Positions 35,774 to 42,537 of a stretch of 59,710 nt of DNA are shown in pieces. Position 1 is the first letter of the stretch, and each line of letters starts with the position of its first letter. The stretch covers positions 1-59,710 of the forward strand of contig JAJCZP010000264.1 of assembly GCA_029262315.1 (NCBI GenBank), given 5' to 3'. Both the position numbers and the translations under genes were made by a program. Source of the DNA: Deltaproteobacteria bacterium. GTDB taxonomy: Bacteria; Desulfobacterota; Binatia; UTPRO1. The notes under the pieces are model-generated. The model searched no databases. It worked only from the letters and a program-made list of their open reading frames with translations, and was not told where the DNA came from.

Positions 35774-37300
35774 ATGTCCATGCCTGCCACCGTAACGACG
35801 TGCGCCCTGCTCGGGATCGACGCCCACTGGGTCCAGGTCGAGGTCGACGTCGCCGCCGGGCTGCCGCAGACATCGACGGTCGGACTCCCCGACCATGCGG
35901 TGCGTGAAAGCAAGGATCGGGTGCGCGCGGCCCTGCGGAACTCGGGCTACGTGTTGCCCCCGAAGCGCATCACCATCAATCTCGCCCCCGCGCATCTCCG
36001 AAAGCAGGGGTCCGCCTACGATCTCCCGATCGCCGTCGCGATTCTTGCCGCCACAGGCCACACCGAAGCGACCTCGCTGTCCGATGTCGTGATCGCTGGC
36101 GAGCTGGCGCTCGACGGGGCGCTGCGTCCGATTCGCGGCGCCCTCTCGATCGCGGTCGCGGCACGCGCCGCGGGCCAGGCCCGGGTACTCCTGCCGCAGG
36201 CAAACGCCGCGGAGGCCGCCCTGGTCGAGGGCATCACCGTCCTCGGTGTGCGCTCACTTCGGGAAGCCGTCGAGACGCTGGTCGGCCGCCATACACCCGA
36301 GGCGCCCGAGCCAGCCCCACACGCGACCCCTTCAGCGCCGATCTCCGATCTGGCCGACGTCGCCGGACAAGAACCGGCGAAGCGCGCGCTCGAAGTCGCG
36401 GCCGCCGGTGGCCACAATCTCCTGCTGGTTGGCTCTCCGGGCGTCGGCAAGTCCATGCTCGCACGCCGTGTGAGCGGGATCCTCCCCGAGCTGGCGCTCA
36501 CCGAGGCGCTCGAGGTGACTCGCGTCCACAGCGTGGCGGGAACACTCGGGCGACAACCGCTGATACGTACCCCGCCCTTCCGAGCGCCGCACCACACGGT
36601 CTCGGCCGCCGGGCTCTTCGGTGGCGGCGGCAGCACTCCTCAACCCGGGGAACTCGCCCTCGCCCATCATGGCGTACTGTTCCTCGACGAGCTGCCCGAG
36701 TTCCGCCGCGACGTGCTGGAAGGACTGCGCCAACCCCTCGAATCCGACGTCTTCACGGTCGTCCGCGTCGGCTGGCGCGCCACTTATCCCACCCGGGTCA
36801 TGCTCGTCGCAGCGATGAATCCCTGCCCGTGCGGTCACCTCGGCGATCCGCGGCACGAGTGCCGCTGCACGCCGCACCAGCTGGCGCACTACGCGACACG
36901 CGTCTCGGGCCCGCTCCTCGACCGGATCGACCTGCATGTCAACGTCGCCGCGGTCTGCTCCGGCGATCTGAGCGGCAACCGTACCGGCGAGCCGTCGGCC
37001 GCGATCCGCACACGCATCGTCCTCGCACGCGCCCGCCAAGCCGCTCGCTTCGGGGCCGACACCTCGATCACCAACGCCCGCATGAGCGATCGACTTCTCC
37101 GCGCCCACGCGCAACCGGACGACGCCGGACGCCAGCTGCTCGAACGCGCCATGACGCGTCTCGGCCTCAGCGCCCGCGCCTACACGCGCATCCTGAAGGT
37201 CGCCCGTACCATCGCCGATCTGGCCGAACGCGACACGATCAGCGCAGCCGACGTCGCCGAAGCGATCCAGTACCGGAGCCTCGACCGCCCGCTCGGGTAG
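35774..37300 (+). CDS. comM: ComM/YifB Mg-chelatase-like AAA+ helicase
   Basis: Hexameric helicase promoting branch migration during natural transformation in characterised bacteria. It is about 508 residues: an N-terminal Lon-like domain (ALLGIDAHWVQVEVDVAAGL), Walker A in VGSPGVGKSMLARR, GELALAHHGVLFLDELPEF, MNPCPCGHLGDP, and the C-terminal helical domain. The start is ATG 35774 or 35780. The gene appears intact to its normal end (AEAIQYRSLDRPLG). A 94-base piece near its 3' end recurs at 40803-40896. Confidence 0.92.
   Translation: MSMPATVTTCALLGIDAHWVQVEVDVAAGLPQTSTVGLPDHAVRESKDRVRAALRNSGYVLPPKRITINLAPAHLRKQGSAYDLPIAVAILAATGHTEATSLSDVVIAGELALDGALRPIRGALSIAVAARAAGQARVLLPQANAAEAALVEGITVLGVRSLREAVETLVGRHTPEAPEPAPHATPSAPISDLADVAGQEPAKRALEVAAAGGHNLLLVGSPGVGKSMLARRVSGILPELALTEALEVTRVHSVAGTLGRQPLIRTPPFRAPHHTVSAAGLFGGGGSTPQPGELALAHHGVLFLDELPEFRRDVLEGLRQPLESDVFTVVRVGWRATYPTRVMLVAAMNPCPCGHLGDPRHECRCTPHQLAHYATRVSGPLLDRIDLHVNVAAVCSGDLSGNRTGEPSAAIRTRIVLARARQAARFGADTSITNARMSDRLLRAHAQPDDAGRQLLERAMTRLGLSARAYTRILKVARTIADLAERDTISAADVAEAIQYRSLDRPLG
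37157..37250 (+). repeat. left copy of the 94-bp direct repeat (inside comM)
   Basis: Begins CGTCTCGGCCTCAGCG and ends CAGCGCAGCCG, 50 bases before the last base of comM. It matches 40803-40896 in the same orientation with two substitutions (G to A in both). Confidence 0.9.
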
Positions 37301-37503
37301 GCCCCGGGTCGCGCGCTGCAGCCGCGCGAGCACGCGACCGGCCGGTGGCCCCACCGCAAGCTGCCGGCTTGTTCGGGTTCAGCCACGTTTGGAAAAAATT
37401 GGGCAGAGCCCCGTCAATCGTGACAACATCGACCCAGTGGTGCAGGTTCGTTTTTCGGGGGAGACGTCAGAAGCTTACGCTCGGAGGCAGCTCATCTTCA
37501 TCC
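37301..37503. other. intergenic region between convergent comM and the histidine kinase
   Basis: No gene is seen. The sequence includes an A-run (GGAAAAAATTGGG near 37393) that is lower in GC than the surroundings, and short GC-rich inverted sequences near 37340-37370 that could terminate either gene. Confidence 0.4.
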
Positions 37504-38754
37504 TCACGGACAGCCAACCGGTCGCATTGGGGTGTCCACTTGGTCACGACTGACGGTTAGCGGCAGTTCGACGACACAGCACCACCCCATGCCCGCTCGC
37601 TCTTCGGCGAGGAAGGAGCCACCGTGTGCCTCCACGAGGGTGCTCACCACGAAGAGGCCAAGCCCCACGCCACCGTGGCTCCTCGGCGCGTCGACGAAGG
37701 CCTGCCCGATAGCCACGCGATCTCCGTGGCTGACTCCTGGGCCGGAGTCAGCCACGGAAATACTCACGCGATCATCGGCACTCGTTGTTTCGATCTCCAC
37801 CGTGCAGCCAGGCTCAGCATGGCGTACCGCATTCGCGACCAGGTTGTCGACAATGCGTGTCACGGCGACTTCGTCGAGCATGCACACCGGTATCAAGCCC
37901 GGCGTGACCACAAGCGAGACCCCGCGGACCCGCGCCGCAAGAGTATGCTGGTCAACCGTGCGTGCCACAACCGCATTCACTGCCAGCTCCGTTGGGTGCA
38001 AGCGGTACGTCCCCGTGTGCAGACGAGCGTATTCTGCGAAGTTCTGCACCAACCGCCGGAGGTAGTCGCTGTTCCGTGTCACCAAACTCAGTAGGGGGCG
38101 TGCCTCGTTGCGGTCTCCCCGCTCCACGGCATCCCCGAGCGACGTTATGCCAAGCCCGATGGCGGTTGTCGGGCTGCCAATGTCGTGCGCGAGAGTCGCC
38201 AGCAGCTCTGTCCGTGCCCGGTCGGCGGCTTCCACCGCGGCGATACGCCGCTGCTGCGAGCGGATCCGATGGACGAGGACTCCGTAGAACAATGCAGCGC
38301 TGAAGAGGCACGTAACCTCCAGCAGATGGGTCTGTTGCCATACGGCCGAGGGCTCGCCCTGTGCGAGGACCCACAGGTAGGCCAGACACACTGCCAGGAC
38401 GCCGACGAGCATCAGCAGGAGGTTCTCGGCCAGCGCGGCGAAGAAGAGGACGAAGAAGTACAGGAAGAAGAACTCCGCGCTTCCGCTCTCGGTCAGCACC
38501 ATGCTGGCTGAGATCCAGAGGGAGTCCAGGACCACCACGAAGCCCGCGACCCGAGAGCGGCCGGATCCTTCCAGGCCGATCCGGCTCAGGAAAACGTTCG
38601 AGGCCAAGGCCACGGCGATGATGCCTGCGGACGCCGTCGAGCCGCCGGTCCAGCCGTCCCGACCAACCAGGAGATAGCTCACCGCGATGATCAATACGTA
38701 GCGCAGCAGGACGAGTTCCCGAAGATGAATGTGCGCGTGTAATCCTGAGAACAT
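37504..38754 (-). CDS. orphan membrane sensor histidine kinase
   Basis: Sensor kinase of 416 residues with about six membrane helices in the first 170 residues and no large periplasmic loop, implying an intramembrane signal. The phospho-acceptor is in LLATLAHDIGSPTTAI (H-D-I-G-S-P). The ATPase domain has VDNLVANAVRHAE (N box), DSGPGV (G1) and GGVGLGLFV (G2). No response regulator adjoins it. It is 72 bases downstream of the sigma-factor gene on the same strand and may be in one operon with it. Confidence 0.88.
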   Translation of the reverse strand: MFSGLHAHIHLRELVLLRYVLIIAVSYLLVGRDGWTGGSTASAGIIAVALASNVFLSRIGLEGSGRSRVAGFVVVLDSLWISASMVLTESGSAEFFFLYFFVLFFAALAENLLLMLVGVLAVCLAYLWVLAQGEPSAVWQQTHLLEVTCLFSAALFYGVLVHRIRSQQRRIAAVEAADRARTELLATLAHDIGSPTTAIGLGITSLGDAVERGDRNEARPLLSLVTRNSDYLRRLVQNFAEYARLHTGTYRLHPTELAVNAVVARTVDQHTLAARVRGVSLVVTPGLIPVCMLDEVAVTRIVDNLVANAVRHAEPGCTVEIETTSADDRVSISVADSGPGVSHGDRVAIGQAFVDAPRSHGGVGLGLFVVSTLVEAHGGSFLAEERAGMGWCCVVELPLTVSRDQVDTPMRPVGCP

Positions 38755-38826
38755 GGGCTTGCTCCCTATCGCGAGCGCTCGACGTTCCGATGACCCGACG
38801 ACGCGAAGGACGCCCGTCTGCGCATG

Positions 38827-39534
38827 CTACGAGCGCCTCGGTGTCATCATAGCCCGCAGCGTGGCGAGCGCCTCGTTGCGCAACTGCCAAGCACGCGCTT
38901 CGCTCAAACCCAGGCGCGCCCCCACCTCCCACAGCGAGCGGTCCTCGCCATAGTAGAGCTTCAGGACGTTGGCCTGTCGCGCGGGGAGACGGGCGAGCGC
39001 GGCACCGAGCTGCCGGGCCTGTTCCCGCGCCACAACGTGCGCGAACGGATCCTCGCCGCTGGCGCCGTCGAGAGCCTTCTCCAGCACATCGATCGGGACG
39101 GCGATCGTTGATGTGAGGACGAGGACGGACTGGAGAGCTGACAGGCCCAGTCCCGACGCGGCGGCCAGCTCATCGAGTGCAGGCTCCCTGTGCAATGTCA
39201 TCGCGAGCCGTGACTGCGTTGCCGCAAGGTGCTCGGCGCGGCGGGAGATACCGCGCGACTGACGGTTTTCGCGTCGCAGGCCGTCGAACATAGCGCCGCG
39301 GATGCGCGCGCCCACATACGTGCGAAAGGATGCCCCACCATCCTCGCGATACCGACTCGCCGCGCTCAGGAGCCCCTCCATCCCCCAACTCAGGAGATCA
39401 TCGAACGTGATGGACGGTGGGCTCGATCGCGCTATGCGGTTCGCGATGCGGTGCACGAGCGGGAGGTTCCGGCGGCAGGCCGCCTCCAGCGCTTCGCGTC
39501 CGCCCGCGGGAACGCCGTGTCGTGCCTTCCTCAT
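38827..39534 (-). CDS. RNA polymerase sigma factor, FliA (sigma-28) family
   Basis: Sigma factor of 235 residues. Region 2 includes DDLLSWGMEGLLSAASRY and ASFRTYVGARIRGAMFDGLR, which is the FliA pattern; a short region 3 follows; region 4 is LPARQANVLKLYYGEDRSLWEVGARLG with recognition helix SEARAWQLRNEAL. Its start overlaps the stop of the FlhG-like gene by four bases. In flagellar operons fliA follows flhG, but no flagellar structural gene is in the window. Confidence 0.85.
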   Translation of the reverse strand: MRKARHGVPAGGREALEAACRRNLPLVHRIANRIARSSPPSITFDDLLSWGMEGLLSAASRYREDGGASFRTYVGARIRGAMFDGLRRENRQSRGISRRAEHLAATQSRLAMTLHREPALDELAAASGLGLSALQSVLVLTSTIAVPIDVLEKALDGASGEDPFAHVVAREQARQLGAALARLPARQANVLKLYYGEDRSLWEVGARLGLSEARAWQLRNEALATLRAMMTPRRS

Positions 39535-40298
39535 CGGAGCAGTGGTCCGTGGCCGCGCGCCGGGGCGGCACTCGGGGTGAGGAGCCGCACGGCGATCTGA
39601 TCCACGGCCTCGTGTGGCCCTGGTGCCATGAGCGTCCCGGCGAGATGGGCGGTGCGACGCGTCAAATCCAGCCGTCCGTCGAAGGGGAGCGCGCCGAGAT
39701 AGTGGAGATCGGCCGCGATCGTCGCGCTACAGAGGCCGGCCATGACCGCGAAGGCCTCCATGCCATTGGCGTGGTCCTCAACGCGATTGACCAGCACTTC
39801 CACGGCGATTCTTGGGAGCTTGGCCGCCAGCGCCGTCAGAAGGGCCGCGTGCTTGCCGTACGTGTCTTGGCCCGGTGTCATCACCAGGACCGGACAGTCC
39901 GCAAGGCCGGCGAAGAAGAAGAGATTTGGGGAGATCCCGGTGTCGATCAAGAGTAGGTCGCAGTCGGGGCGGAGATCCTCGACGGCCTGCTGCAAGAGCA
40001 AGCGTTCGGCGGCGCTCAGGACCCGGGTTGGGTCTGAGTGGGATCCGCTGGCGACTACCCGGAGGCCCGGCCAGGCCGTCGCTTCCATGGCGTCCATCAG
40101 TGAGCAGCGGCCCGCGAGGACGTCGGCGAGGCCACACGACGGAATGACACTGAACGCCCGCTCGAGGTTCCCGAACCCCAGATCCGAATCGAGAACGACG
40201 ACGCGGCCTCCGGCGGCAGCGGCCACCGCGATGGCCAGCCGGGCCGAAACCGTCGTGCTCCCCGCGCCATTGCTTCCGACCACCGTAATGACTTGCAT
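39531..40298 (-). CDS. MinD/ParA (FlhG-like) protein with degenerate P-loop
   Basis: Protein of 255 residues with the MinD/FlhG fold: N-terminal MQVITVVGSNGAGSTTVSA, switch region DSDLGFGNLERAF, and LLLIDTGISPNLFFFA in place of Walker B. The P-loop reads SNGAGSTT where the family has KGGxGKTT, so both the signature lysine and the Walker lysine are serine. It probably cannot hydrolyse ATP normally. GGAAGGGG precedes ATG 40298. It is cotranscribed with the sigma factor and may act as its regulator. Confidence 0.82.
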   Translation of the reverse strand: MQVITVVGSNGAGSTTVSARLAIAVAAAAGGRVVVLDSDLGFGNLERAFSVIPSCGLADVLAGRCSLMDAMEATAWPGLRVVASGSHSDPTRVLSAAERLLLQQAVEDLRPDCDLLLIDTGISPNLFFFAGLADCPVLVMTPGQDTYGKHAALLTALAAKLPRIAVEVLVNRVEDHANGMEAFAVMAGLCSATIAADLHYLGALPFDGRLDLTRRTAHLAGTLMAPGPHEAVDQIAVRLLTPSAAPARGHGPLLR

Positions 40299-40362
40299 CG
40301 GTGTCCCCTTCCGATGCGTCCCATGGAGTCAGAGCGAGAATCTAAGGTTGGATCGCTTTCAA

Positions 40363-40794
40363 CTAGTTCGGAGTGTGGGCCTGAAGACGCACAGCCCTGG
40401 CATTTGCGACAACCGTGCCAGGTTGGCGCTGCGTAGGTAGTAACCCCTCGACTTCGTTGCTGCCGGCACAACCAAGTGTAGAGCGGCGCCGACGGATCGT
40501 GTGAGTTTGACACAGCGCCAATCCACGCCAGTCAGGAAACCGGCGCGGGGAGTCGGGAAAGTGACTCGGTAGCTTGCAAGAACATCGGCGGTAGGATGCC
40601 AGGGGCCGCCGCGCCGCGGACTCCCATCTGGACGCCGTGCTTTCGTCCACCCCGAGAAGCTGCGCGGCGTCCTTCTGGCTGAGCCCGAGAGCCTCGCGCT
40701 GGAGCTTGAGGCGTCGCCCGTGGGGCAAGCTCGGCTCATAGAGCACGTAGCCGATGGAGGTGATGAGCCGCGGTAGGAAGAAGGTCTTCGGCAT
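40363..40794 (-). pseudogene. XRE-type HTH gene with degenerate 3' half
   Basis: The first 65 or so residues contain a good HTH: SLPHGRRLKLQREALGLSQ followed by KDAAQLLGVDESTASRWES. After about residue 70 the frame becomes Arg/Cys/Pro-rich sequence with no protein character, although the frame stays open to 40363. Small HTH proteins of this kind usually end soon after the HTH, so this could be a live short gene with an out-of-frame tail or a truncated remnant. Its ATG lies nine bases from the right comM repeat. Confidence 0.45.
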
Positions 40795-40802
40795 GGATCG
40801 CC

Positions 40803-40896
40803 CGTCTCGGCCTCAGCGCCCGCGCCTACACACGCATCCTGAAGGTCGCCCGTACCATCGCCGATCTAGCCGAACGCGACACGATCAGCGCAGCCG
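40803..40896 (+). repeat. right copy of the 94-bp comM-derived direct repeat
   Basis: Same orientation as 37157-37250, two mismatches. After CAGCCG the sequences diverge: comM continues into its last codons while this copy enters a hairpin. Confidence 0.9.
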
Positions 40897-40919
40897 CCGA
40901 CGCACGGAGCGTCGGCGGC
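40893..40919. terminator. 11-bp perfect hairpin at the repeat junction
   Basis: GCCGCCGACGC (40893-40903), loop ACGGA, GCGTCGGCGGC (40909-40919). It lies just beyond the stop of the minus-strand secreted-protein gene and probably terminates it. Its left arm starts inside the right comM repeat. Confidence 0.6.
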
Positions 40920-40932
40920 CGATCACAAGGTC

Positions 40933-42429
40933 CTAGTCGTCGAGCAGCGGAACGCCGAAGGTGTCGTTGAAGCCTTCGTGCGGCAGCTGCTCGCGGCCGT
41001 TGATCTCGGACACATCCGGGGGCTGACTGCCCTTCTCGTCGTCGACCAGCGTCGCGTTCAAGATGTTCACGTCGCCGCCCGCGGTGATGACGATCTCACC
41101 AGGCTTACCGAAGTCGTTGCGCACGGTCGCGCCCTCGAGATTGATGTTCCGCCCCGCGGTGAGCTTGATGTTCTCCGCGATCAGGAACTCGCTGCCGCCG
41201 CCGTCGATGTCGATCTCGGCCGTAACGAACATCTCGCTCTCAACCCCGCCCGTGAAGACGCTGCAGCACGGCGGAGTTGCCGTAGGCGTCGGGGACGGCG
41301 TCAACGTCGGCGTCACCGTCACCGTCACGGTGGGCGTGACCGTAGCCGTCACCGTGGCCGTGGGCGTCACCGTCGGGGTAGCCGTCACAGTCGGCGTCAC
41401 GGTCGGTGTCGTCGTCGGCGTCGGCGTCACCGTTGGCGTTACTGTTGCCGTCGGCGTCACGGTCGGCGTCACCGTAGGAGTCGGGGTCGGCACGTTTGTC
41501 GGCGTCACGGTTGGCGTCGGAGTTGGCCCGCCGGTCTGGGTCGGAGTGACCGTCGGAGTAGGAGTAACCGTCGGTGTGACCGTTGGTGTCGCCGTGACGG
41601 TCGCGGTGACCGTCGGCGTCGGGCTCGGATTGATCAGCGGCGTGGTCGACGAGCTAGGAAGCGGCGTGGCAGTCAATGTCGGGGTAACAGTGGGGGTCGC
41701 TGTCGGCGTCACTGATGGCGTCGGCGTCGGGTTCTGCTCGCAGTTCTGGCAAAACGCCAGGGCTTCCTGCACCGGGTCCGTCACCGGACCGAGATCGTTC
41801 CGGAAGCCACGCTCGTTGAAACCGGACAGCTGCTGGGTCAGGCGCCGGACAGAAGCATCGCGCGACGTAATCCGGATGAGATCGCGTGGGCCGTGGGTCT
41901 CGATCAGCGAGCCCCCGCCCCAGATGACATCACCGTGCGCGTCGACCTCGAAGCGATTGCAGATGATGTGCGCGCCGAGGAAGGTGATCGTGCAGTTGGC
42001 GTTGTTGCACTGGAAGTCGACGTTGTCGCCAGCCGAGAGTTCCACGGGACCCTGGACGGTGATCGCGTTGCCGGCCTCGATATCGACATCCGCATTGGAG
42101 TCGGACGCGAGCAAATCGCCGGTGACCATCACCGTGTTCTGGGCCTCGAGGACGATGGCCTTCCGGGTGCCGCTCGACGCGATGGCGCCACCGTTCATCC
42201 CGTCGATGTAGATCGACTGCGCTTCAATGCGAATCTTGGTCGTGCTGCCCTTCGGCTCGATGAGGCCCTGAATCACGACCGTGTCGTCGGGAACGTCGAT
42301 CACCGTGACGCTCGACCGCACTTCGCAGCGTGGGTCAGTATCACAATCGGTGATCGTCACCGTCGCGGACGCGGGTACCGCCAGAAACACGACCGTAAGC
42401 AAAACTAGAAATCGGAACTGTACCGTCAC
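40933..42429 (-). CDS. secreted protein with long Thr-Pro-Val linker
   Basis: Unrecognised exported protein of about 498 residues. GTG 42429 follows GGGAGGG and opens a signal peptide ([16 protein letters not shown]). Residues 20-225 form a repetitive beta-rich domain with alternating I/V positions ([18 protein letters not shown] style), reminiscent of a parallel beta-helix. About 160 residues of TPTVTP-type linker follow, then CCS and a second beta-repeat domain ([14 protein letters not shown]). Two passenger domains joined by an extended, probably glycosylated, spacer is the likely architecture. Function unknown. Confidence 0.8.
41270..41740 (-). repeat. coding Thr-Pro-Val low-complexity repeat
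   Basis: DNA consists of degenerate hexamer-based repeats (GTCGGCGTCACC variants on the plus strand) encoding TPTVTP units inside the secreted protein. It is slippage-prone, and its length may vary between strains or be mis-assembled. Confidence 0.8.
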
Positions 42430-42537
42430 AAAGAGCCCTCCCAGGCGTTGCGCACATTGAATCACACCGACTCGGGCATGGGCAAGCCACGTAAATTCAG
42501 GGAAATTCGGAGGAACCCCAGCAAGCGACTCCGCATA

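Follow-up and report, generated by a model that had tools for sequence, protein, structure and literature searches.

FlhG, also described as FleN or YlxH, is a MinD-like ATPase of flagellar number and position. Its N-terminal helix, with the motif DQAxxLR, stimulates FlhF (PMC12826062). Two related proteins depart from the P-loop of this family. BcsQ, a SIMIBI protein of cellulose secretion, has the deviant Walker A motif RGGVGTT with neither the signature lysine nor the Walker lysine (PMC9178275, Table 1) and forms an ATP-bound sandwich dimer (PMC11470070). In the carboxysome-positioning ParA protein McdA, a serine replaces the signature lysine, and ATPase activity is unusually high (PMC6328274). 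The E. coli locus shows the RGGVGTT of BcsQ as well; for strain K-12 MG1655, the record lists bcsQ (L097, 7234-7986) as a pseudogene. We know of no MinD/ParA relative that acts as an anti-sigma factor. Here, we compare with these systems a FlhG-like gene that lies next to a sigma factor gene in a deltaproteobacterial contig; the window is the whole analysed stretch of 59,710 nucleotides.

Loss of both P-loop lysines in a FlhG relative

The FlhG-like protein (255 aa) is encoded on the reverse strand at 39531-40298, from an ATG start and with the stop codon included. Its residues 8-16 are GSNGAGSTT where FlhG has GKGGVGKTN, so that in its deviant Walker A motif (40254-40277, reverse strand; GSNGAGST at residues 8-15 against GKGGVGKT) the signature lysine is replaced by S9 and the Walker lysine by S14. 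Both serine codons are AGC and each is two bases away from a lysine codon. In an alignment of the 48 best FlhG-type matches from the class and the phylum with four MinD proteins, which is a comparison of best matches rather than a full survey of FlhG, both lysines were present in 51 of the 51 rows with a readable P-loop. The double loss is thus far from a chance observation. The first-pass annotation had read SNGAGSTT with both lysines replaced by serine and had regarded DSDLGFGNLE and IDTG as retained; the translation and the FlhG alignment confirm the former, the latter two are indeed present, and the case for the double loss is stronger than it was stated. That annotation did not include the two-residue deletion in switch II, the other lost FlhG motifs, the neighbouring kinase gene or the repeat that flanks the block.

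The rest of the nucleotide site is partly preserved. Switch I, from D37 to N44 (DSDLGFGN; 40167-40190, reverse strand), contains D37, D39 and N44, which are invariant in the homologues. Of the positions that never vary in the canonical FlhG of the family and are conserved to at least 90% elsewhere, those retained are G8, G11, G13, D37, D39, N44, D119, T120, G121, N171 and D207; judging from the fold family, N171 would be a base contact. The Walker B/switch II segment D119-T120-G121 (39936-39944, reverse strand) lies at a two-residue deletion that removes the Ala-Gly of switch II: DTGAGIS or DTAAGIS of FlhG has become DTGIS, and the pattern D[TM]xAG is absent.

By homology, the ORF is a genuine FlhG/FleN relative. 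It matches FleN (5j1j) over residues 2-209 with E = 4.8e-21, and, aligned along nearly its whole length, it shares 34-36% identity with the family's own FlhG. In trees it falls in the FlhG group of the class (support 97), and placing it beside its own family's FlhG is not rejected (p-AU 0.12). Its branch is very long, with 7-8 changes per column where the median of the other sequences is 0.3-0.4. The protein stays below the curated cut-offs of the MinD profiles TIGR01968 (42.6 against 212.9 bits) and TIGR01969 (56.1 against 201.75 bits) and of the BcsQ profile TIGR03371 (26.0 against 157.85 bits), and a Pfam search returned no match to a known anti-sigma family. A single-sequence AlphaFold model had a pLDDT of 40, too low to be reliable.

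Several features of FlhG outside the nucleotide site have also changed. The FlhG signature P-T-S-x-T-D-A-Y-x-x-x-K is altered at positions 144, 145, 148, 149, 151 and 155. The FlhF-stimulating N-terminal helix is missing, as the ORF begins directly at beta-1 (MQVITVV), whereas the canonical FlhG of the same genome has an N-terminal extension with DRAEELN. By inspection only, no C-terminal membrane-targeting helix is recognisable in the tail RLLTPSAAPARGHGPLLR, compared with GLQFFFQRLLAGQAG in the canonical protein. Since the membrane helix, the FlhF-stimulating helix and the FlhG surface motif are gone, a flagellar role is unlikely, and the missing membrane helix makes the earlier idea of a localisation factor less likely as well.

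Evidence for selection and search for orthologues

The FlhG-like gene has the codon signal of a normal gene: its log-odds were 0.19 per codon in frame (GC3 0.80), and four further genes of the window, scored likewise, gave 0.13-0.18. A ribosome-binding-like sequence, GGAAGGGGA, precedes its start. The more conserved the column, the higher the identity to FlhG, from 17% where columns vary to 53% where they are near-invariant; this gradient is partly confounded, as the reference may itself have changed at variable columns. When neutral drift was simulated from the genome's own flhG, 0.26% of the runs were still free of stops at 45% identity and 0.05% at 34%, counting stops alone, before any frameshifts or indels. 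With a normal codon signal in an ORF that drift is expected to break, simple decay is unlikely, and the gene is apparently under selection. Plain sequencing error or recent decay, which we considered as the origin of the two serines, was rejected: each serine codon requires two base changes, the switch II deletion is in frame, and the intact codon signal and the drift simulation speak against it as well.

The same genome has a canonical flhF-flhG-fliA cluster on another contig (C186), in which FlhG reads KGGVGKT, and the single copy of the anti-sigma factor FlgM lies on this flagellar contig. A search of 148 genomes from the class and 395 from the phylum found no orthologue of the FlhG-like gene; the best matches there were of the FlhG type with intact lysines in every row read; no second genome of the genus was seen among the genomes searched. 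The first-pass annotation had proposed that recent decay would be revealed by homologues with intact lysines, and the outcome was different: the searches brought up no orthologue at all, only ordinary FlhG on short branches. Phage, plasmid and viral collections gave only FleN-like or weak matches, and nothing specific was found in defence and phage protein libraries. The gene has therefore been seen in one genome only. A scan of 84,980 species (genome_contigs) with short peptide patterns returned a sole match (L033), an antisense frame sharing EDLRPDCD, which we discarded as it is no relative.

The coupled sigma factor

The gene that follows encodes a divergent sigma factor of the FliA/WhiG type (235 aa; 38827-39534, reverse strand). 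The TGA of the FlhG-like gene (39533-39531) and the ATG of the sigma gene (39534-39532) form a usual ATGA overlap; the annotation had already described the two genes as coupled by overlap. Sigma regions 2 and 4 of the product exceed the Pfam cut-offs, whereas its score against FliA_WhiG (TIGR02479) was 148.4 bits, below the curated cut-off of 189.6. Its conserved positions are unevenly affected: all 12 of 12 are kept in the core-binding region 2.1-2.2, but region 2.3-2.4 differs at 10 of 22 and region 4.2 at 9 of 18; in the latter, the near-invariant recognition helix TESRVSQLHSQA has become SEARAWQLRNEA. These changes in regions 2.4 and 4.2 suggest that its promoter specificity is likely shifted. 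No exact FliA-type promoter (TAAA-N14-17-GCCGATA) occurs in the window, and scans of 37000-41000 for sigma-70 promoters and terminators found none.

In the flagellar genes of this family, fliA ordinarily comes after flhG. The tree puts the cassette sigma factor apart from fliA, in the other sigma clade of the family, which is non-flagellar (98/95; 94 in another tree), but a position with FliA is not rejected (p-AU 0.088), and the long branches make both placements uncertain. On these trees, a clean duplication of the flagellar flhG-fliA pair is a possible but not a secure origin of the two genes. The genome has a third sigma-28-type gene on contig C168. This additional non-flagellar factor of the family (L077, 6881-7702) was also found at L078 and L080, and in genus g3 the non-flagellar sigma-28-type gene directly adjoins a gene for a large histidine kinase-receiver protein. 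At 11 loci with other sigma-28-type genes, no hidden FlhG-like neighbour was seen.

A block bounded by duplicated comM ends

The two coupled genes lie in a block of about 3.5-3.6 kb between two direct copies of the comM 3' end: the 3' part of comM itself on the left (37157-37264, forward strand) and a detached copy on the right (40803-40911, forward strand). The copies are 94.5% identical over 109 columns (E = 4e-44), and no further copy is present elsewhere in the genome. Each resembles the other far more than it resembles comM of relatives (76-80%), which dates the duplication as recent relative to the split from these relatives. The block contains, besides the sigma and FlhG-like genes, a histidine kinase gene (416 aa, with HisKA and HATPase_c and a hydrophobic N-terminal part; 37504-38754, reverse strand), which no response regulator gene adjoins, and an ORF with an XRE-type HTH (40363-40794, reverse strand), probably a truncated remnant, with the HTH and coding signal confined to about its first 70 codons.

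Two sister-genus relatives have the order comM, SDR gene, PT-repeat protein gene and ptsP; in one of the two, a GNAT gene was also recovered ahead of ptsP. Both lack the block at this site, which is occupied by the SDR gene. Relatives of the kinase (48-49%) are present in these two genomes, with no sigma or FlhG-like gene adjoining them. Together with the comM repeat, this gene order makes the block look like the result of an insertion or recombination event at the comM end, and the repeats themselves may be an integration or recombination footprint; no integrase gene was found inside the cassette. To the right of the block, a 510-aa protein with a long PTPTVTPT-type repeat is encoded at 40933-42465 (reverse strand), and a similar gene lies between comM and ptsP in two relatives.

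Discussion

The reading we prefer, though tentatively and at somewhat less than even confidence, is that the protein descends from FlhG, no longer cycles and acts as a partner of the coupled sigma factor. A SIMIBI protein of FlhG descent would have taken on a regulatory role in the cytosol, as partner of the sigma-28-type factor translated with it, within a small inserted cassette (FlhG-like protein, sigma factor and histidine kinase) that is separate from the flagellar system. It would no longer run the ATP-driven cycle of monomer, dimer and membrane binding, but would hold one conformation, either empty or with non-hydrolysed nucleotide, and this conformation would bind the sigma factor or the RNA polymerase holding it. 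The histidine kinase may provide signal input to the pair. The co-translated sigma factor is the most probable partner we can infer; as flhG next to fliA is the ancestral arrangement, however, adjacency is weak evidence of binding, and it is from adjacency that an anti-sigma role would have to be argued. The stronger proposal has a pseudo-ATPase of the MinD/ParA superfamily exert direct control over a sigma factor of new promoter specificity, with a sensor kinase encoded in the same mobile-looking cassette; it is in our estimate doubtful.

The earlier interpretation, a nucleotide-independent pseudo-ATPase coupled to the sigma gene, holds as far as the coupling and a pseudo- or at least non-canonical ATPase are concerned; nucleotide independence does not follow from the loss of the lysines, given the ATP sandwich dimers of BcsQ and the very active serine-signature McdA. 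As a first alternative, the protein may resemble BcsQ, as an ATP-binding sandwich dimer that serves as a slow or non-hydrolysing ATP-dependent scaffold, with Ser14, Thr15 and Thr16 replacing the lysines. We consider this possible, if on the unlikely side. The two motifs are alike in having a hydroxyl residue at the Walker lysine (RGGVGTTT and SNGAGSTT), and the P-loop glycines, D37, D39, D119 and N171 are kept; on the other hand, the score far under the BcsQ cut-off, the two-residue deletion in switch II and a cassette without a cellulose gene or an obvious small partner do not fit. The extra deletion in switch II also makes ordinary ATP hydrolysis unlikely, although the protein may still bind nucleotide.

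The very long branch, the ATGA coupling and the presence of the gene in one genome only could also mean that a duplicated flhG is kept mainly for translational coupling to the sigma gene, with little function of its own. The normal codon signal, the gradient of conservation toward the fold residues and the improbable survival of the ORF under drift argue otherwise, and we regard such a leader-like role as clearly unlikely. Even less probable is a role as dominant-negative homologue, in which the protein would pair with canonical FlhG or FliA and change the number of flagella or the expression of late genes. A target is available, as the genome has the canonical set and FlgM, but the protein has lost the signature lysine, TDAYxxxK, the N-terminal helix and the membrane helix, the DNA-recognition regions of the cassette sigma factor diverge from those of FliA, and the cassette has neither a flagellar structural gene nor, like the rest of the window, an exact FliA-type promoter. 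What we favour, the non-cycling sigma partner, suggests that a flagellar switch was reused as a gene regulator. If the predicted sigma binding is true, a spatial-patterning ATPase would have lost its nucleotide cycle and become a regulator of transcription, which would bear on FlhG-type transcription partners beyond FleQ/FlrA, a question raised in PMC12826062.

The loss of both lysines is in itself already known from BcsQ; the present FlhG-derived SIMIBI protein adds, beside BcsQ, a case of a MinD-family protein that has lost both and is apparently still under selection. New here is the block of FlhG-like gene, sigma gene, orphan kinase gene and XRE remnant bounded by the duplicated comM 3' end. 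Compared with FliA/WhiG sigma-28 factors, the cassette sigma factor shares regions 2 and 4 as well as the conserved core-binding segment, but differs in regions 2.4 and 4.2 and in its lower profile score. McdA shares the replacement of the signature lysine by serine (SGGQGKT); however, it keeps the Walker lysine, is very active as an ATPase and belongs to a different subfamily. BcsQ is similar in having neither lysine and a hydroxyl residue at the Walker position, whereas the cassette protein is far below the BcsQ family cut-off, has no cellulose genes in its cassette and is of FlhG ancestry. From FlhG/FleN/YlxH, finally, the cassette protein is set apart by the missing lysines, switch II Ala-Gly, TDAYxxxK and both terminal helices, and by a gene that lies outside the flagellar cluster of a genome with an intact FlhG elsewhere; nevertheless, FlhG is its best sequence match over the ATPase core, and its gene precedes a sigma-28-type gene just as flhG precedes fliA.
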